From: Polyangia bacterium
GTDB lineage: Bacteria; Myxococcota_A; Polyangia; Nannocystales; Nannocystaceae
Direction: 5' to 3'
Assembly (NCBI GenBank): GCA_030429545.1
Contig: JAUIFF010000006.1
Coordinates: 310,001-374,000 of the forward strand
DNA: 64,000 bases
In this document: one piece after another, positions 41,963 through 51,076 of the stretch
Layout: each line of letters begins with the position of its first letter
How positions within the stretch are numbered: position 1 is the stretch's first letter
Program-made: the position numbers and the translations under genes
Notes under the pieces: generated by a model
Told to the model about the DNA's origin: nothing
Database searches by the model: none
What the model saw: only the letters and a program-made list of their open reading frames with translations

Positions 41963-43579
41963 TTAGCGACTGCGACCACCACGGGACTGCCAACTGCGTA
42001 GCCAGGTGCCCCGGGCACTATCCGAGGGAAGGCCCTTGCCATCGAGCAGCGCGAGGGCGCCGATGTAGAGCCAGGCATCGCCTTTTTGTGTGTGTGCATC
42101 AATACAGGCCCGTACATCGGGGTTGTTGCGTGGTAACCACAGCCGCCCTGGGGCGGGCCCCGAGCGGGTTGGCGGTCCGTCACCCTCACACATGGCAATC
42201 TCGGTGGGGCATCCGCGGCCGGTGCCTGCGGCGATTGCCTGCAAGCCAGATAGGAAGTCGCGTTCGGGGCGGGTCAACTGTGACTCCGGAACCGCCGTCC
42301 GAGCCCGCCGCAGCCAGCTTACCGAGAATAGATCGCCGACAAAAAGCCGCATGCGGCTTGTCCAACGCCGGCCGTCGCGACGCAGTGCGGGGGTGCGAAA
42401 GCGGATCTTGAGGAGTTCGCCGAGCGCTCCCCGGGTGGCGGCATCGAGCACGAGCACGCGGTTGCCGGCAAGTGTGTAGTGTGCAGGATTTTGTTCGGGA
42501 AACAGTGCGAGGATTGGCGAGCGTTGTTGGCGGGCGAGAGCCATGAGCGCGGCCAAACTAATATATGTATATGCATGTGTCTCGGGTTCGAGGCATGGCA
42601 AAACCGGTAATTCGGCGAGCCGCTCAAGCACCTGTCGCCGGCGGGCCGCGAGTAAAACCAAATTGAGGATGCGTTCGCGAACCCGCGGCCCTGCCCGCTC
42701 AATTTGACTGGCGAGGTGGTGCAGGAGCTCAACCGCTTGGTCCGTCAGCGGCTCGAGCCATTCACGGATGGCGGCGCGCAGGGTTTCGGCTGTCGTCGCC
42801 CGTGTGAGGGCTGGGCCGACGTCGATGATCGCCTCGAAGCACGGGGCATTTTGCACGCTCACATGGGTTGCAACCACTCCGTGACGCAACAGTACGACCC
42901 TTGCACTTTCGCCATGGGCTGGCATGCCGACGGTACCCGAGAGTTCGCGCGCATTGATCTGCGAGTTGGCTTGCCAGCGCGGGTCTTTGGTATGCAGCGG
43001 TCGCGTCGCTAAAAACGCATCGAGCCCGGTCGCCACGGATTCTCCATGTAGATACACATAGTCCGGGCCATAGCGGCACTTGCTTTGCAACCACTGACGC
43101 GCGCGGTTGTGGTCGAGTTTGATACCGGCCACCCGCACGCGTGTGCCGTTGTGGTTGGGCTGCGCCCGTAGGGTTACGGCTGTCGGTGTTGCCGACAGAT
43201 GCCACGGGCCCGAACCAACTTCGATGTTGGCCGTGAGGCCGCCTAGGGCGAGTAGTGATGGTGCATCCTCAGCTTCGAGTGCCAGCAGGGCGCGGTGGCG
43301 TCGGGTCGCCTCTTGACGGGTGTCGAGCAGGGCGGCGAGATGCTCGAGTAGGTCCTTGGACAGGGTGCGACCGGTGTCGTCAACTTCAAAGCCTTGGCGG
43401 CTGAGTTTGACATCGACGCGACTCGCGGCGGAGGCGAGTGCCCGCCGAACAAACTCCGTCGGCAATTGCCAGGTGCCTTGAAACTGGGCAACCGCGAGCT
43501 TGCGAAGCTCCGCACCGACATCGATCGTCAGCAGTTCATCGACGTTGAGCGCGATTGGCTGGCGCTCAGGCGTGGTCAC
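41963..43579 (-). CDS. Partner protein, possible degenerate Hsp90-like (GHKL) fold
   Basis: The 538-residue protein has no named family I recognise. Residues 40-90 (LPTEFVRRALASAAS, then EVDDTGRTLSKDLLEHLAALLD) line up in pattern with the N and G1 boxes of Hsp90-like ATPases, but the invariant Asn/Asp pair and the Gly motif are lost. The next stretch (SGPWHLSATPTAVTLRAQP, NGTRVRVAG) resembles the corresponding region of the neighbour at 43667, so it may be its degenerate paralogue. It is separated from that gene by 87 bases on the same strand and probably co-transcribed. No signal peptide or membrane segment is evident. Confidence 0.55.
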   Translation of the reverse strand: MTTPERQPIALNVDELLTIDVGAELRKLAVAQFQGTWQLPTEFVRRALASAASRVDVKLSRQGFEVDDTGRTLSKDLLEHLAALLDTRQEATRRHRALLALEAEDAPSLLALGGLTANIEVGSGPWHLSATPTAVTLRAQPNHNGTRVRVAGIKLDHNRARQWLQSKCRYGPDYVYLHGESVATGLDAFLATRPLHTKDPRWQANSQINARELSGTVGMPAHGESARVVLLRHGVVATHVSVQNAPCFEAIIDVGPALTRATTAETLRAAIREWLEPLTDQAVELLHHLASQIERAGPRVRERILNLVLLAARRRQVLERLAELPVLPCLEPETHAYTYISLAALMALARQQRSPILALFPEQNPAHYTLAGNRVLVLDAATRGALGELLKIRFRTPALRRDGRRWTSRMRLFVGDLFSVSWLRRARTAVPESQLTRPERDFLSGLQAIAAGTGRGCPTEIAMCEGDGPPTRSGPAPGRLWLPRNNPDVRACIDAHTQKGDAWLYIGALALLDGKGLPSDSARGTWLRSWQSRGGRSR

Positions 43580-43666
43580 GAGACCTCCATAGTATTTTGT
43601 ATGAGCAACGAATGTCAGGCGAATTCTCGTTGCACCCAGGGCGTCGCCGGGAGGGGCCTTGCCTGG

Positions 43667-46648
43667 TCATGCTCCCTCCCGAATCACACGCTTTGCACAG
43701 GCGCCCAACACCACGGCTCGGCGGGCAACCGCGAGGTCGAGGCGTTTGGTCAACATATCGACCATGCGTAAGACCGCGAGCCGAGGCGTTTGCGAATGGG
43801 CGGCGGCGGCCTCAATCAGGGAGGGGTTGTTGCGGTCGAGGACGATCAGTCGCGTCCCCTTCATCGGAGATCTGCGCAGGCGTAGCGGCCCTAGATCGAG
43901 GCTTTTGAGGGACGAGCCGAGGCCGTCGGCGACCCGTACAGTCCAGCGCTCACCCGCGCTGGCAAATGCTGCGTTGACATCCTCGAGCAGCGGCGTGGTT
44001 TGGGCTGTGCGCATGAGTTTGTCCCACATGTCGAGGTCGACGGCACCGAGTGTATCTGCAACGGTTCGAGCCTCGGGGCTGCGGGCATCGAGTACCGCAA
44101 CGTTGCCGCTGTGGGCATCGCCGGCGAGCTTGGACGGTTGTCCACTGCGAAACAGGGCACTGCTGGCAGCGAGACCTAGCGCCCGCTCGAGTGAGATCTG
44201 GCGACCGCCGAGCAGGGGGATAAGCGGCCGTTGGTAGAGGGCAGGCAGCGAGCGAAAGGCGTCGGGTTGCAGCAGCGCACCCTGCAGGAGCCGCGAGAGA
44301 TCACCCCCGTTGTCGAGCTGGGTGTCTCGGCGTGTGCGTCGACGCAGCAGGCCACCAACCACGAGGATCATGCCGAACGCCGCGACACTCGGGGCAACCC
44401 ATGCCGGCAACGTCACGGCTTTGGCAGCGGGCGGCGGGGATGGGGGACCGGCGACCGTTGGGGCCGCAACCTCCCCTGTGGGCTGTTCAGGCTGTGGTTG
44501 CGTGACGGGTCCTTGGGCCGACCCTGTGTCTGGGCCTTCGCCGGTTGGATCACTCGGTCCCTGCGCGGCCTCGGCGAAGGCCATGGGGTTCGCCCCACTA
44601 CTTGCATCAGCATGTTTCCAGAGTCCGTTTTTGTCGCGATACTCGACCCAGGCATGGAGCCACCTCGCCGGCCTACCGTCGCGCCCGACATAGCCCACGG
44701 CGAGACGCGCTGGGACCCGCGCGTGCTGCAATAGCGACACGAGTAGTCCGTTTTGCACATCGCAGTCGCCAGCGCCGATCTCGAGCGCGCGTTCAAAGAA
44801 CTGTTGACCGCGGTCGCGGGCTTCGCCGTGGCGACGGGCCACCTCCGGGGAAATGCTGTAGCGAACCCGCTTAGAGACCTCGCGTGTAAGTCGTTTGACA
44901 CGTTTTTCGAGTGGCTGGCGGCGGAGATTTCGGGCCAGCTTTTCGAGCTCTGGCGGCAGCTTTGCCCGTTGGGCGTAGAGGGTGGGGGGTTCCTGGGGCG
45001 GCGCCACAACAGTGACGTAGCGCAGCGTCGAGGTGGTCTCGGCCGGCAACACGAGGACGGGCTCGTCGAGACTTGTTGCAAATACACTGAGGTCATCGAC
45101 GCCGTCGAGTTCGACCTGGTCGGTGTCGAGCCGGTGGCCAGTCGGAATCGGGATGCGCATCACCCCGGCTTCGACATCGACCGCCATGGTGATCGAGGTG
45201 CAGGTGTCATTGTTGCTGCTACATGGCGTGCCGACGTATTGTGTCAGGGCTTCGGGGTTGGTATCGGCAAGTTGGGGATGGCCGCGCTCGTCGAAATTCT
45301 CGATGATCAGGGCGGCGAGTCGCAGGACTTGGTCGGTGGGTTCGTAGCGCAGATCGAGAGCCACACCCTCACTGTCGAGGACATCGACCTGGGGCCCCTG
45401 GTAGGTCCGCGCCAGGTCGTGGTAGCTCGGTGTTCGCCGGACAACCGTTGTCGGTTCGGCCGCGACGGTATGGACGACCGGGGTTTTTTGCAGCCCAAAC
45501 CGCACCAGGACCTGCTCGCGCCACAGCCAGACCGCGATCAGGGCGGCGATTGTTGCCCCAATGAGTGCAGCTACAACAAGTCGCCAGGCCAGCGAAGTGC
45601 GCAGGATATGCATCACTCCGGTGATCAGCCGCTGCGGCAGGGGAAGTGGGTGGGCGGCGTCGATCTGTCGGGTAATCAGGCGTTCGAGCTCACGTTGAGC
45701 CAGGGTGATGAGCCGGCGTAGGGTCCGGTCTTCGCGGGCGTCGGACCGCGACAGCAACAGCTCGAGGGCATCGCTTTCGAGTAGAGCTTGGGGCGCGAGG
45801 CGGCCCGGAAGCTCGGTAAATTGCACGCGGCTGCGATCGGTGTGACGCCCTCCAGCCGATAAAAACTCGCTGAGTGACGAGGCCGAGCGCACCCGCAGAC
45901 CCCGCGAAAACAGCTCGACACGGGCCGAGGTGCCGAGGCCAATGACCCCGCGTACCCGGCCGCGGGAAAACGCCGCAAATGGCGGTGGGAGGGTAAACGG
46001 CTCGTTGATCGCGTTGCCGTTGACCGTGATCAGTAGCGGTTTTTGTGGATCATCCCGTGTACATACAAATCGAGCATTCTGGTGGGCGGCATCGCGGATT
46101 CGCCGGTCGAGTTGACCATCGCCGGGCCCACGCTCGAGTATCACTTCGGTACCCGTCGTCAGGGCAGGCTGGTCGAGCGAGGCCTGGTCGAGCGAGCCCT
46201 CGAGCGTGACCTGCCAGGGCTTGCCTGAGGTGGGTGCAGATGCAATCAAAATCCGCTGCGGCTCAAACCGCAGAATCGACCAGAATCCAACCCCAAACTT
46301 GCCAACCTGGTTGCGGTTGGACTCCTTGCTCGAGGCGTATAGCGAAAACAAATAGCGGCGGGCATGCTCGTAGCTCATGCCCTCACCATCGTCGCGGCAA
46401 ATCACCCGCTCGCCGGTCGATGTCTGCTCAACGATGAGTTCGACCCGTGTCGCACCCGCGTCGCGGGCGTTTTGCAGCAACTCGCGAACAAAGATCCACG
46501 GATCTGGACCGTAGCGATCGGCTTCGAGACGGGCCCGCGCCCGAAATCCAGATGCCGGTTTACGCCCCACGAACGTCACTTCTCCGCTTGTGGGGGATGG
46601 ACACCACAAAGAGTGTAACGCCCCGGGTCGCGATTCGCCTTCCCGCAA
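43667..46648 (-). CDS. Membrane Hsp90-like ATPase fused to a transglutaminase-like domain
   Basis: The 993-residue protein begins with an Hsp90-like ATPase: N box ELLQNARDA (56-64), G1 DDGEGM (86-91) and G2 GKFGVGFWS (117-125). A membrane helix follows (about 353-376), then an extracytoplasmic region with a transglutaminase-like papain-fold domain. Its triad is Cys629 (GAGDCD), His665 (LHAWVEY) and Asp681 (KHADAS). After a Pro/Gln-rich linker a second helix (748-768) leads to a C-terminal cytoplasmic domain. The fusion implies ATP-driven control of a periplasmic or surface enzyme. Exact role unknown. Confidence 0.85.
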   Translation of the reverse strand: MREGESRPGALHSLWCPSPTSGEVTFVGRKPASGFRARARLEADRYGPDPWIFVRELLQNARDAGATRVELIVEQTSTGERVICRDDGEGMSYEHARRYLFSLYASSKESNRNQVGKFGVGFWSILRFEPQRILIASAPTSGKPWQVTLEGSLDQASLDQPALTTGTEVILERGPGDGQLDRRIRDAAHQNARFVCTRDDPQKPLLITVNGNAINEPFTLPPPFAAFSRGRVRGVIGLGTSARVELFSRGLRVRSASSLSEFLSAGGRHTDRSRVQFTELPGRLAPQALLESDALELLLSRSDAREDRTLRRLITLAQRELERLITRQIDAAHPLPLPQRLITGVMHILRTSLAWRLVVAALIGATIAALIAVWLWREQVLVRFGLQKTPVVHTVAAEPTTVVRRTPSYHDLARTYQGPQVDVLDSEGVALDLRYEPTDQVLRLAALIIENFDERGHPQLADTNPEALTQYVGTPCSSNNDTCTSITMAVDVEAGVMRIPIPTGHRLDTDQVELDGVDDLSVFATSLDEPVLVLPAETTSTLRYVTVVAPPQEPPTLYAQRAKLPPELEKLARNLRRQPLEKRVKRLTREVSKRVRYSISPEVARRHGEARDRGQQFFERALEIGAGDCDVQNGLLVSLLQHARVPARLAVGYVGRDGRPARWLHAWVEYRDKNGLWKHADASSGANPMAFAEAAQGPSDPTGEGPDTGSAQGPVTQPQPEQPTGEVAAPTVAGPPSPPPAAKAVTLPAWVAPSVAAFGMILVVGGLLRRRTRRDTQLDNGGDLSRLLQGALLQPDAFRSLPALYQRPLIPLLGGRQISLERALGLAASSALFRSGQPSKLAGDAHSGNVAVLDARSPEARTVADTLGAVDLDMWDKLMRTAQTTPLLEDVNAAFASAGERWTVRVADGLGSSLKSLDLGPLRLRRSPMKGTRLIVLDRNNPSLIEAAAAHSQTPRLAVLRMVDMLTKRLDLAVARRAVVLGACAKRVIREGA

Positions 46649-46658
46649 TCGGTTCTGG

Positions 46659-48260
46659 TTACGGAATCGGTTCGTGGGCAGGTCGTTGTGTTCCCCACCC
46701 CGCTAGGCTCGCATAGGCGCTCCCCTGGCCATATCCCAGGGACACGACCAAAAACGGTTCGTCGGCGGTGAGAATATGGGCCATGCCATCGGCGAGGGGG
46801 ATGGCCGCAAACTCGTACATCTCACCGGCTGGAGCGAACAGCTCGTCATCGACGACCTCTCCGTTGAGCGCAACCTCCGAACCCGCCGCGCGGGCGACCA
46901 CGGCATAGGAGCGCTCCCATCCTGGCAGGGTAAACACGGCGTAGTAGTCGAGCCACCGGGTTGTCGGACTCAGGGTAAAGATCTCGGGGCCGCCAATCGG
47001 CATGGTCGACGGCTTGTCGGCATGGTTGGTGACATAGCCCGCGACCGCGATTTCGCGACTGGTCGAAATCTCGAGCCCGTTTCCGGTGTGCCACAACTCA
47101 AAGGTTTCGCCGGCCTTGAGCACAAGTTCTTGGCTCGAGTTATTTGCGTCTACAATTTCTACGGAGGTGCTGTTTTCGAGGGCATAAAGTTGCCACAGCG
47201 TGGCCTCCGGATTATCCGGGTCGCGTGGGGGCAGTGGCGGCGCGACAAAGTGGGTACCGTAGAGATAGGGGCTGAGCTGTTCTTGGATGTGGTTGCAGTT
47301 GGGCTCTTCGTCGGGGACCGATGCACATGCATGGGCTGTGAACAGGGCAATTGGGTGCTCGCCACCAGACTGCACCACCGAGCCGGTGAGACCATAGTCG
47401 AGCTCCTCACTCGATTCGGCAACTGCGACCTGGGTGACATCGCCGTCGTTGAGGGCGATCGACAGCGGCGACTGTGGGCCACCGCCTGCGAGCAGGTTGC
47501 CCGGCAGGGTTTGGGCCGAGGGAACCATAGACACCACGGTGCCACTGTGATGCCCGATGGTGGCGACATACGAGGGGATGTTGCCGGGCGAATGGGTTTG
47601 CCAGCCAAGCACGTGATAGTTCGATGACCACGCGGACAGTGGGAGCAACAGGGTCGAGGCGGAACCCTCCAGCGAAAACGCGTCGACACCACTAAACTGG
47701 TACACGGTTGCCGGCAGGTTGGTCCTCAGACGAAACGCACCCCCCTGAAACCACCCGGAGCCGTCGATGTGCTGTTGTGGAAGTGTATATACATGGTAGC
47801 TGCCCGCGGCGACTTCAGCCTCGGGTTCGAGCTCGGTCCACTCGTTGTCGAGCCGCTGAAACAGCGTGCTGTGCATCGGCGTGTCGGCGTGGGGATTGAC
47901 CACGACAACCCAGGTCGGCGTTGGGTCGGCGGGATCTGTCCGGTCGAGATCGAAGGGGTAAAACAGGCAGCCCGAGTGGGTCGCCGAGAGATGGGACTGC
48001 AGACAGTTGGTCGGCAGCAAAGGTGGGTCGGTCCACGTCGGCGCAGCGACGTCGAGTTTGGGCAGGTCAAACGGATCGTCGAGCTCGGGCTCGGCACCTG
48101 TGGTCGTCGACTCCGGGTACTCGTCACCCGTTGTGCTCGACGAGCCTTCGCTACTGCCGCTCACTCCAGTGATGACATGGATGTCGCCGCTCCCGAGGCA
48201 ACCTGTCGCCAAACAGGCCACCAAGCACCCGGTCCATGCAGATGGGCGAAGTTCCACCAT
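46659..48260 (-). CDS. IgGFc-binding-domain-like lipoprotein
   Basis: The 533-residue protein has a signal with lipobox LATGC and a GSSEGSSSTTGDEYPESTTTG linker. Its body resembles the IgGFc-binding protein N-terminal domain found in many myxobacterial lipoproteins: WVVVVNPHAD, FQGGAFRLRTNLPATVYQF, SYVATIGHHSGTVVSM and ending LGYGQGSAYASLAGWGTQR. Predicted surface lipoprotein; ligand unknown. It sits just upstream of the Hsp90-like fusion gene, separated by 10 bases, so it might belong to the same transcript. Confidence 0.75.
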   Translation of the reverse strand: MVELRPSAWTGCLVACLATGCLGSGDIHVITGVSGSSEGSSSTTGDEYPESTTTGAEPELDDPFDLPKLDVAAPTWTDPPLLPTNCLQSHLSATHSGCLFYPFDLDRTDPADPTPTWVVVVNPHADTPMHSTLFQRLDNEWTELEPEAEVAAGSYHVYTLPQQHIDGSGWFQGGAFRLRTNLPATVYQFSGVDAFSLEGSASTLLLPLSAWSSNYHVLGWQTHSPGNIPSYVATIGHHSGTVVSMVPSAQTLPGNLLAGGGPQSPLSIALNDGDVTQVAVAESSEELDYGLTGSVVQSGGEHPIALFTAHACASVPDEEPNCNHIQEQLSPYLYGTHFVAPPLPPRDPDNPEATLWQLYALENSTSVEIVDANNSSQELVLKAGETFELWHTGNGLEISTSREIAVAGYVTNHADKPSTMPIGGPEIFTLSPTTRWLDYYAVFTLPGWERSYAVVARAAGSEVALNGEVVDDELFAPAGEMYEFAAIPLADGMAHILTADEPFLVVSLGYGQGSAYASLAGWGTQRPAHEPIP

Positions 48261-48334
48261 ATCGCCGAACCAAGGTTACCGCAGGCTTCGCGCATACAGT
48301 GGCCAAGCCCGCTGGAATTTCGCCGTGAAACCAT

Positions 48335-48363
48335 AAAAAACCGCCCAGGATGGACCTAGGCGG
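48335..48363 (-). terminator. Minus-strand terminator downstream of the FecR-like gene
   Basis: CCGCCTAGG pairs with CCTGGGCGG around TCCAT on the minus strand, followed by six T residues. Confidence 0.75.
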
Positions 48364-48377
48364 GCTGGATTTCCGTG

Positions 48378-48501
48378 CTTTGCTCGGTGGGAACCGGAGG
48401 ACATCACGGGATGCTCCGGCGGGCAAAGCGGGACTCTCGAAGGGGCGGCGAAGTCGAGCTTCGGACTGAATCAAACCAAGAGAGGCCTGCCCATCTTGGG
48501 C
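48378..48501. ncRNA. Candidate structured RNA or 3' UTR with nested hairpins
   Basis: In the 320-base gap, GCTTTGC pairs with GCAAAGC around an inner CCGGAG/CTCCGG and CATC/GATG stem. A second hairpin pairs CCAAGA with TCTTGG. On the minus strand these precede the terminator at 48335-48363, so they could lie in the FecR-gene 3' end or a small RNA. No family was recognised and no expression data exist. Confidence 0.35.
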
Positions 48502-48583
48502 TCGCGACTGTAGACCTCCATTGATCCAGTGGAGAGCCGGTGGAAAATCGGGTGGACTTTTTTTCAGAAAAAATCCGCGAGCG

Positions 48584-50167
48584 CTAGAGCTCAGCCAAGC
48601 GTTTTCGCATTACCTTGGCCTCTAGGCTGTTTGGGAATTCGGCCAGGAACCGGCCAATCGCGGCCTTCTCTTCCGATTTTCGACCCAGCGACCGAAGTGC
48701 GCGAATCTCTCCGCTCCTCGCTTCACGCGCCAGTGGGCCCCCGCGCCGGAGGTACGCTCGATAATTTTCGAGGGCACTCGAGGGATCTGCCAGGTGAACG
48801 CGGAAGAGATCTCCAAGCTGAACGCGCGAAGTTTGTGCGACGGCCGAGGCGGGAGCGGCCTCGATGAGTTTGGCCAGCAACTTGGCTGCGCGGGACCAAT
48901 CGCGGGCTTGCCGCGCCGAACGGACCGCGGCCTTGAGGTCGGCTACGGTGTCCACCGGTTTCGCCCGTTTTGGTTTGGGCGTTGGCGCCAGGGCTGCAGG
49001 GAGTGAGGCCTCGGTCGGGTTGCCGCGGGTGAGTTCGATGGTGTGCTCACCCCGGGTTCCGCGAACACTGAGCTGATGCTGACCCGCGGGTGCAAGGAGT
49101 GACCCCGAGGGACCGACAACAACCGTATCGAGCAGGTAACTGTTGCCGCGGTCGGGGAGGTTGAGCTGGGCGAACGCCTCGACCTCGCTGCCGCGCCAGA
49201 GGTTGCCAAGCGCCGCCCGGGATGTGCTCCACGGATCGGGGCTCGCGGCGGTTGGGGCTTGGCTGCGCTCGTCGATCGTCATATTTGCATGAACAAGTAC
49301 TTCGCGACGTGACTCAGAGGACACCCCCACGGTTCCTTCGTGGACCGTAACCTGGCTACCGGTGTCGTCGTGGTGCACGTCGAAGATCGTGCCGATGGCG
49401 GTGGCCGAGGAGGTGGGCGATGCAACGACAAAGTGTTGGCCCTCGGGTAACTTATCGAGGTTGGCGACAACCCGGCCGCGGTCGAGCTCAATCCGCCGGG
49501 TCTCGGCATCGATGCCCAGGGTGAACTCACTACCACGTTCGACACACACGGCAGCAAAAGGTTGTTGATACACAAAGCATAGATCCGACTGGGCCGTATG
49601 CCGGGTGTTGAGGGCGATGGCTTCGCCAACATGGGTGGGGTTTTGGCCGCCGACAAACGTGACCCGCGGGGCGACGGGTTCGCGTTGTTTATGAACCACG
49701 GGATGGTCGGGCTGTTCGGGTTGCTCGGCGGCTTTGGGTTGCTCGCCGTCAGGTGCCGGAGTATCGGCGAGCTGAGCGAGCGAGCTCGGACTTGGTGATT
49801 GTTCCGCAGGGGAAGTTGGCCATGCAACGATCGCTGCTGCGGCCGCGGCCACGGCTGCGATGGCGGCATACCAGGGGCGTTTGGTCGGCTGTTTGAGGGG
49901 AACAACCCGGTCTGAAGTGCCAAAGCTCGGGTTATCGACATTGGCCAGGACCGAATCGATCAGTTGCTGCCGTCCGGTTTCCAAGTCGGAGGAGTGTGCA
50001 TGTGCAAGTGTCCCGAGCATGGCCTCCCAGGCCGTCGACTCGCGGGCACACAGCGGACGCTTGCGCTCAAAGTCCCGACGGAAGGCCGCGTCGGCGGCAG
50101 AGATCGGTTCGCCGAGGACCTCGCGGTCAACGATTTCCTGCCAGCGTTCGTAGTCGGCGTCGCTCAT
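48584..50167 (-). CDS. FecR-domain anti-sigma-like membrane protein
   Basis: A cytoplasmic N-terminus (residues 1-95, with an ERKRPLCARESTAWEAML motif) is followed by one membrane helix (about 100-115), a Pro-rich linker and a FecR-like domain (VYQQPFAAVCVERGSEFTLGID ... VVASPTSSATAIGTIFDVH). A C-terminal tail of TPR-like helices (WSRAAKLLAKLIEAAP) completes it. In the family, such proteins hold an ECF sigma factor at the membrane. The upstream sigma gene overlaps it by four bases, supporting this pairing. Confidence 0.82.
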   Translation of the reverse strand: MSDADYERWQEIVDREVLGEPISAADAAFRRDFERKRPLCARESTAWEAMLGTLAHAHSSDLETGRQQLIDSVLANVDNPSFGTSDRVVPLKQPTKRPWYAAIAAVAAAAAAIVAWPTSPAEQSPSPSSLAQLADTPAPDGEQPKAAEQPEQPDHPVVHKQREPVAPRVTFVGGQNPTHVGEAIALNTRHTAQSDLCFVYQQPFAAVCVERGSEFTLGIDAETRRIELDRGRVVANLDKLPEGQHFVVASPTSSATAIGTIFDVHHDDTGSQVTVHEGTVGVSSESRREVLVHANMTIDERSQAPTAASPDPWSTSRAALGNLWRGSEVEAFAQLNLPDRGNSYLLDTVVVGPSGSLLAPAGQHQLSVRGTRGEHTIELTRGNPTEASLPAALAPTPKPKRAKPVDTVADLKAAVRSARQARDWSRAAKLLAKLIEAAPASAVAQTSRVQLGDLFRVHLADPSSALENYRAYLRRGGPLAREARSGEIRALRSLGRKSEEKAAIGRFLAEFPNSLEAKVMRKRLAEL

Positions 50168-50781
50168 GCGGTCCTCCGGTTGCTGGCGGGTGCGATGACA
50201 TGGTCGCGGCGGATCATGCGACGGAATTCACGGCGAGCGGTGAGAAGGCGGTCTTTGACAGTATTTGGCGATACATTCGTGAGCTCGGCAATTTCGGCAA
50301 CCGAATGGCCAAGGACATGGCGCAGGACGAGGGCGGTGCGTTTGGGTGGTGAAAGCCGGTCGAGGTATTCTTCGACGGACCGCGGTATCCGGAACTCGGG
50401 GGCTTCGTCGGCCGGCCGCGCTTGGGTGGCGAGGGTATCGGGGTCGGCTTCGGGGTTGACCCGCTCGTTGCCGCGGTTGCGTTGCTTGGCGTAGCGAAGT
50501 GTGGTCCGCACAACGATGCGGTCGGACCATGCTTCGAGCGAACCCTCGCCGCGGTAGTTGCCGGCCGAGCGCAGCAACTCCATCAGGCAAAGTTGGGTGG
50601 CATCGTCGGCATCGGCCCGATTGCGCAGGAGCGAACGCGTGGCACGACGAACCCGCGCGAACAGACGTTCGATCAGTTCCTGCTGAGCCCGGCGATCGCG
50701 GGATGCCACCAACTCCATAAGTTCTCGGTCTCCGTGCGGCGAGTTGCGACCAACTTCGTGCGCGTTTGTCACGGTCGTCAT
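50164..50781 (-). CDS. ECF sigma factor paired with FecR-like protein
   Basis: The 205-residue protein has sigma region 2 (ADADDATQLCLMELLRSAGNYRGEGSLEAW) and region 4 (LSPPKRTALVLRHVLGHSVAEIAELTNVSPNTVKDRL). An in-frame upstream extension (from 50847) is not conserved. The ATG at 50781 precedes MTTVTNAHE. The 4-base overlap with the FecR-like gene indicates translational coupling. The regulon is unknown. Confidence 0.87.
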   Translation of the reverse strand: MTTVTNAHEVGRNSPHGDRELMELVASRDRRAQQELIERLFARVRRATRSLLRNRADADDATQLCLMELLRSAGNYRGEGSLEAWSDRIVVRTTLRYAKQRNRGNERVNPEADPDTLATQARPADEAPEFRIPRSVEEYLDRLSPPKRTALVLRHVLGHSVAEIAELTNVSPNTVKDRLLTARREFRRMIRRDHVIAPASNRRTA

Positions 50782-51076
50782 AGGGTTAGTGATCCAAACC
50801 AGGGCAAGCGGGTGGAAAAAACTGAGACGAGGATGACACGGCGGCAATGCGCGTCACCAGTTGTTCGTCGCTAAGCCCGCAAGCCCGTGAAAATACAGGT
50901 TCGGCCAATGTTATCCGACCAACGGCTCAGCCGGTCACCCGGGCCTTGGGCATGCGCGACGCCGGCCCAGCTCAAAAACGACCACCGGCCAGGCGGCCTT
51001 TTGCGGTGAAAACTCAGGCCTACTAGGGGAGTATGGTAGGAGCAAAGAGCACCACAGGGTGTTTGGGGGTGACAAA

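Follow-up and report, generated by a model that had tools for sequence, protein, structure and literature searches.

In this study, we analysed a window of 64,000 nucleotides (contig JAUIFF010000006.1, positions 310,001 to 374,000) from the 8.6-Mb genome of a member of the Nannocystaceae, whose closest named relatives carrying the gene pair described here are Nannocystis, Plesiocystis and Enhygromyxa of the same family. The pair consists of two adjacent genes on the minus strand, A and B (Table 1). The first-pass annotation, made from the letters of the window, had reported open reading frames of 993 and 538 residues at this place. Both frames are present, but the length of the first did not stand: the frame of A can be extended to a TTG at 46648, which is an unlikely start, and because of homology and an in-frame GTG at 46579 we place the start there, giving a protein of 970 aa. 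The gap to the upstream lipoprotein gene is therefore 79 nt and not the 10 bases given earlier. Upstream of A, the window holds genes for an ECF sigma factor, a FecR-domain protein and the IgGFc-binding lipoprotein (46659-50847).

Table 1. Features of the A-B locus, in positions of the window
Feature	Position	Strand	Remarks
Gene B	41963..43579	-	538 aa, predicted degenerate Hsp90-like protein; no membrane helix called
B degenerate ATPase domain	43085..43543	-	E42 retained; Asn and G2 box lost
A-B spacer	43580..43666	.	87 nt in this genome
Gene A	43667..46579	-	970 aa; predicted Hsp90-type ATPase with transmembrane TgpA-like transglutaminase insertion
A cytoplasmic Hsp90-like scaffold, continued	43670..44302	-	small alpha-beta-alpha subdomain and C-terminal domain
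A membrane helix 2	44345..44401	-	residues 727-745, then RRRTRR
A extracytoplasmic TgpA-like domain	44600..45427	-	Transglut_core (Pfam); structural match to PDB 6g49
A triad	Cys606 44762-44764; His642 44654-44656; Asp658 44606-44608	-	
A membrane helix 1	45524..45580	-	residues 334-352; insertion begins here
A Hsp90 middle domain, first part	45650..46042	-	has R278 (45746-45748), paired with Arg of HtpG LPLNVSRE
A N-terminal Bergerat ATPase domain	46070..46555	-	E33, N37, DDGEGM and G-x2-G-x-G all intact
IgGFc-binding-domain lipoprotein gene	46659..48260	-	upstream of A; accessory at most
Terminator-like hairpin	48341..48363	-	between FecR gene and lipoprotein-A-B; pattern match only

Pfam searches with A matched HATPase_c_3 (E = 8.6e-13) and Transglut_core (E = 3.2e-11), the NCBIfam model NF047352 (sacsin-type N-terminal ATP-binding domain) matched as well, and the N-terminal ATPase domain aligned with HtpG in hhalign (E = 2.9e-17). 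In the alignment of 38 A homologues, the ATPase residues E33, N37, D63, G65, G67, G93, G96 and G98, the middle-domain residue R278 and the triad C606/H642/D658 were invariant in all 38, which bears out both the Bergerat ATPase motifs and the triad (Cys629, His665 and Asp681 in the longer numbering) recognized earlier. Since the residues of both sites are invariant, we argue that A has two working active sites. In nearly all members, membrane helices are predicted on either side of the enzyme (in two, one helix fell below threshold); topology prediction places the arginine-rich ends of these helices in the cytoplasm, in agreement with the topology first proposed. Two cysteines of the outer domain, C453 and C460, are also conserved. 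The AlphaFold2 model of A is of moderate quality (pLDDT 77, pTM 0.51); in Foldseek it matched the N-plus-middle domains of TRAP1/Hsp90 (E = 4e-12). A separate match, the best structural one outside Hsp90, was to the periplasmic domain of TgpA (PDB 6g49, E = 3.1e-11).

The canonical HSP90 Pfam model PF00183 matched neither A nor B, and NF003555 was far below cut-off. We defined the scaffold of A as the alignment minus residues 313-744 (helix, outer domain, helix). This scaffold aligned with soluble Hsp90-like proteins of about 600 aa from the same genomes, here called K proteins, over 470 columns and unbroken across the cut (E = 6.7e-44). It also aligned with HtpG (E = 2.5e-16), where R278 falls on the arginine of the LPLNVSRE motif, and with B from the N-terminal domain through the C-terminus (E = 2.8e-16, 431 columns). 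The C-terminal domain of A alone matched the K proteins in hhalign (E = 5.6e-8) but not the C-terminal domain of HtpG (E = 0.088), and is only tentatively comparable with the Hsp90 dimerisation domain. Because the alignment with the K proteins is continuous across the cut, the enzyme sits within the middle domain and is not a terminal fusion; the insertion point comes right after the helix downstream of the catalytic arginine. A is thus an Hsp90-type protein whose middle domain has taken up a TgpA-like surface enzyme, an anatomy that is well supported.

Genuine Hsp90s are homodimers, soluble or lumenal, and have no membrane enzyme inserted in them. A is like HtpG, TRAP1 and Hsp90 in combining a Bergerat ATPase with a middle domain that carries the catalytic arginine, but differs from them in the membrane-crossing enzyme. 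With TgpA it shares a periplasmic transglutaminase-fold domain that has the Cys/His/Asp residues and is anchored by membrane helices. TgpA of Pseudomonas aeruginosa has 688 aa, is predicted to cross the membrane with six helices and is co-transcribed with PA2875-PA2874 (PMC3507681). It has neither an Hsp90 ATPase nor an Hsp90-like partner, whereas A has two helices and carries the enzyme inside an Hsp90 scaffold. TgpA has been reported to be critical for viability and to have transglutaminase activity in vitro, and a cell-wall-linked role has been proposed for it (PMC3507681). Its reported importance for viability and proposed role, together with the Hsp90 nature of the scaffold, would fit a membrane-tethered chaperone, in which an A-B clamp folds or assembles inner-membrane or envelope proteins while the outer enzyme cross-links or trims the same clients with no gating by ATP. 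We consider this quite unlikely, as insertion into the middle domain, rather than fusion at a terminus, suggests mechanical coupling.

No match to B was found in the Pfam, NCBIfam or PADLOC models, in keeping with its first description as a protein of no recognized family, and none among PDB sequences. BLASTP between A and B likewise revealed no similarity, so their homology is visible only by profile comparison and structure. When the profiles of A and B were compared with the insertion left in place, the E value was 1.2e-11, and B aligned with the K proteins in hhalign (E = 3.7e-17). For the C-terminal domains of A and B alone, hhalign gave 1.1e-4 versus 0.08 for the best of 60 column-shuffled controls and 0.44 for a reversed control, and chance likeness was rejected. 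An unrelated fold for B, named beforehand as the outcome that would count against a pair of this kind, was not what structure prediction returned: the model (pLDDT 87) matched TRAP1 (Hsp90) in Foldseek (E = 4.6e-14). The likeness to the ATPase that had been noticed over the first 170 residues of B is real, but the limit was wrong, as B is Hsp90-like over its whole length. The statement that B lacks the catalytic residues also holds in part: the N-box Asn is present in 0 of 38 homologues, and B has also lost its G2 box and the Arg of the middle domain, but the N-box Glu E42 (43454-43456), at the position of the general base, is kept in 38 of 38. Asp20 is invariant as well. Profiles and predicted structure together show that B is a degenerate Hsp90 colinear with the scaffold of A, and its residues no longer make up a working ATP site; the invariant Glu shows that B is more than an inactivated copy.

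In all 37 loci with both genes near-complete, which are spread over three phyla, B comes immediately after A, so that the linkage looked for in other genomes is upheld; 26 of the 37 have an A-B overlap of exactly 4 nt, and the window has its spacer instead. The full architecture was found in Myxococcota, Acidobacteriota (Thermoanaerobaculales, Vicinamibacteria, Holophagae and Sulfomarinibacter) and Aminicenantes by a scan of 84,980 species genomes, the source of the second-phylum evidence, which used two exact peptide patterns on named genomes and for that reason missed distant members. Of 285 Myxococcota genomes that were sampled evenly, nine had full-length B and eight the C-terminal domain of A, the odd one lying at a contig end. 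A and B are nearly universal in Nannocystaceae, and the lone genus without A (sampled twice) is also without B. In genomes with apparently only one of the genes (G004, G012, G013 and G186), the gene stands at a contig end, and a fragment in G017 is consistent with loss at a contig end. In the assembly of Nannocystis pusilla Na p29 (L114 / L071), neither A nor B stays in a single frame, unlike in close relatives, probably through sequencing error. The distance matrices of A and B correlate with r = 0.94 (permutation maximum 0.33), and their trees are congruent and follow taxa in structure. Omega was 0.14-0.32 for A and for B, indicating purifying selection, and this together with the strict linkage to A rules out B as a decaying pseudogene. 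A and B are obligately linked and have co-evolved, and their invariable joint occurrence points to an undescribed machine.

The PADLOC models for TmtA matched the ATPase domain of A (E = 2e-11), which might suggest that A-B serves anti-phage defence, with a sacsin/TmtA-like ATPase at its core. This domain is all that A and TmtA have in common, and the match covers only residues 38-128 of A, that is, about 90 of some 1500 model positions. No matches were found in phages or plasmids, nearly all Nannocystaceae carry A-B in a tree that follows taxa, and no defence genes were seen among the neighbours. A defence function is thus highly improbable, and the partial TmtA match and the empty phage and plasmid searches led us to reject identification of A-B as a defence system.

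Apart from the A-B pair itself, the gene neighbourhood varies. The lipoprotein gene adjoins A in only a few Nannocystaceae, and was therefore dismissed as a third core component; the lipoprotein is kept in several genera of this family and the FecR gene in some (L083, L117, L092 and L104). In Acidobacteriota and some Nannocystaceae, A is adjoined by a gene for a protein of about 1100 aa that combines an MFS-like transporter, HEAT repeats and a cyclic-nucleotide-binding part (L099:1908-5276, L101, L103, L116, L091, L094 and L096) and is a candidate accessory partner. In another Myxococcota family, genes for an ABC1/UbiB-type kinase and a PP2C-like phosphatase lie directly upstream of A (L118:3410-5926, L126 and L115). 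Across the loci, A-B has no kinase, response regulator or DNA-binding protein as a constant neighbour, and no gene nearby in the loci examined points to a target. This bears on the idea of an outside-in receptor, in which the TgpA-like domain would capture or process an envelope ligand and thereby change the Hsp90 clamp inside, with B as output or inhibitory subunit, much like a sensor kinase run with Hsp90. The topology is that of transmembrane sensors and B, a soluble pseudo-enzyme, could be released; still, with no constant signalling partner and an invariant outer triad that exceeds the needs of ligand binding, we regard such a receptor as unlikely.

The K proteins belong to a wider pattern in the same genomes. 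They are soluble Hsp90-like proteins of about 550-620 aa with no membrane helices and no transglutaminase; of the NCBIfam models, NF010683 (HSP90 family protein) and HtpG come nearest, both far below cut-off. In 13 of 16 loci checked, the K gene is followed by a gene for a degenerate Hsp90-like multi-module protein of 1250-2300 aa. The loci concerned are L184-L189, L192, L195 and L197-L201, with G000 C1, C18 and C28 in the genome of the window itself. The first 290 or so residues of these giant partners match B (E = 4e-24), and where scanned the giants gave no Pfam or NCBIfam match. The K/giant loci may represent another, larger family of Hsp90 pairs with one active and one inactive member. 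Common to both families are the scaffold and a degenerate Hsp90-like partner encoded downstream, but the partner of K has several degenerate modules whereas B, of about 540 aa, has one. The several Hsp90-like modules that sacsin carries in one polypeptide recall the giant partners; sacsin is like A in its N-terminal ATP-binding domain (NF047352), but has no transglutaminase, no membrane insertion and no two-gene active/inactive split. In pairwise profile scores, A is nearer to K and B nearer to the giants than A and B are to each other; the pairing therefore looks older than the insertion of the enzyme. On the simplest reading of these scores, which give the order of events from pairwise comparison and not from a rooted tree, an active/degenerate Hsp90 pair would have come first and the A-B branch would have gained the membrane enzyme later. 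The insertion of the enzyme inside an Hsp90 scaffold, the colinearity of B to its C-terminus and the recurrence of active/degenerate Hsp90 pairs in these genomes all go beyond the first-pass annotation.

Hsp90s close on ATP as the N-domain and the middle domain dock by way of the catalytic arginine. Both membrane helices leave the middle domain of A, and ATP-driven movement is thus placed to act on the outer enzyme. Since B is colinear with the scaffold but lacks a working ATP site, we suggest that it is the second half of the clamp. On balance, we favour the view that A-B is an active/inactive Hsp90-type clamp whose ATP cycle acts through the membrane helices on the enzyme outside. A would bind and presumably hydrolyse ATP in the cytoplasm; its chain would leave the middle domain through the membrane, form a periplasmic papain-fold transglutaminase or peptidase and return to finish the scaffold, and B would pair with A as a pseudo-enzyme subunit, probably in an A-B complex. 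When the clamp closes on ATP, the middle domain would move and carry along the two helices that emerge from it, and the shift of the helices could open, position or pull the outer enzyme, which would then modify or cleave an envelope protein as its presumed substrate. That both hydrolysis and catalysis are used is argued from the invariant residues of both sites, and we prefer the inside-out direction on account of the invariant outer triad and the lack of any constant downstream partner in signalling. A-B may be a regulated switch, with energy-coupled control of the outer enzyme, as first suggested.

A search of 5.39 million open papers, with subscription papers and preprints outside its scope, found no published A-B-like pair, no Hsp90 whose middle domain carries a membrane-crossing enzyme and no active/pseudo-Hsp90 pair that is obligate in bacteria; papers on TgpA and on HEPN/sacsin surfaced. 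The remark that the arrangement was not recognized as described has held up in this literature, where the component folds are known and the combination of a membrane-crossing enzyme inside an Hsp90 middle domain was not found. The strictly conserved B family, for which Pfam, NCBIfam and PADLOC have no model, is here assigned a fold. More tentatively, we propose that A-B may be a transmembrane Hsp90, that is, an obligate active/pseudo-Hsp90 heteromer that uses cytoplasmic ATP hydrolysis to control a covalent reaction outside the cell, and that could have arisen from widespread, undescribed soluble pairs of active and degenerate Hsp90s. If so, Hsp90 cycling, which is usually investigated as chaperoning in the cytosol or in organelles, would act across a membrane too, and A-B would be a naturally occurring heterodimeric Hsp90 that allows a direct test of what one dead ATP site does. 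It also yields a concrete hypothesis of how the ATP-free periplasm may run an energy-controlled transamidase or peptidase.
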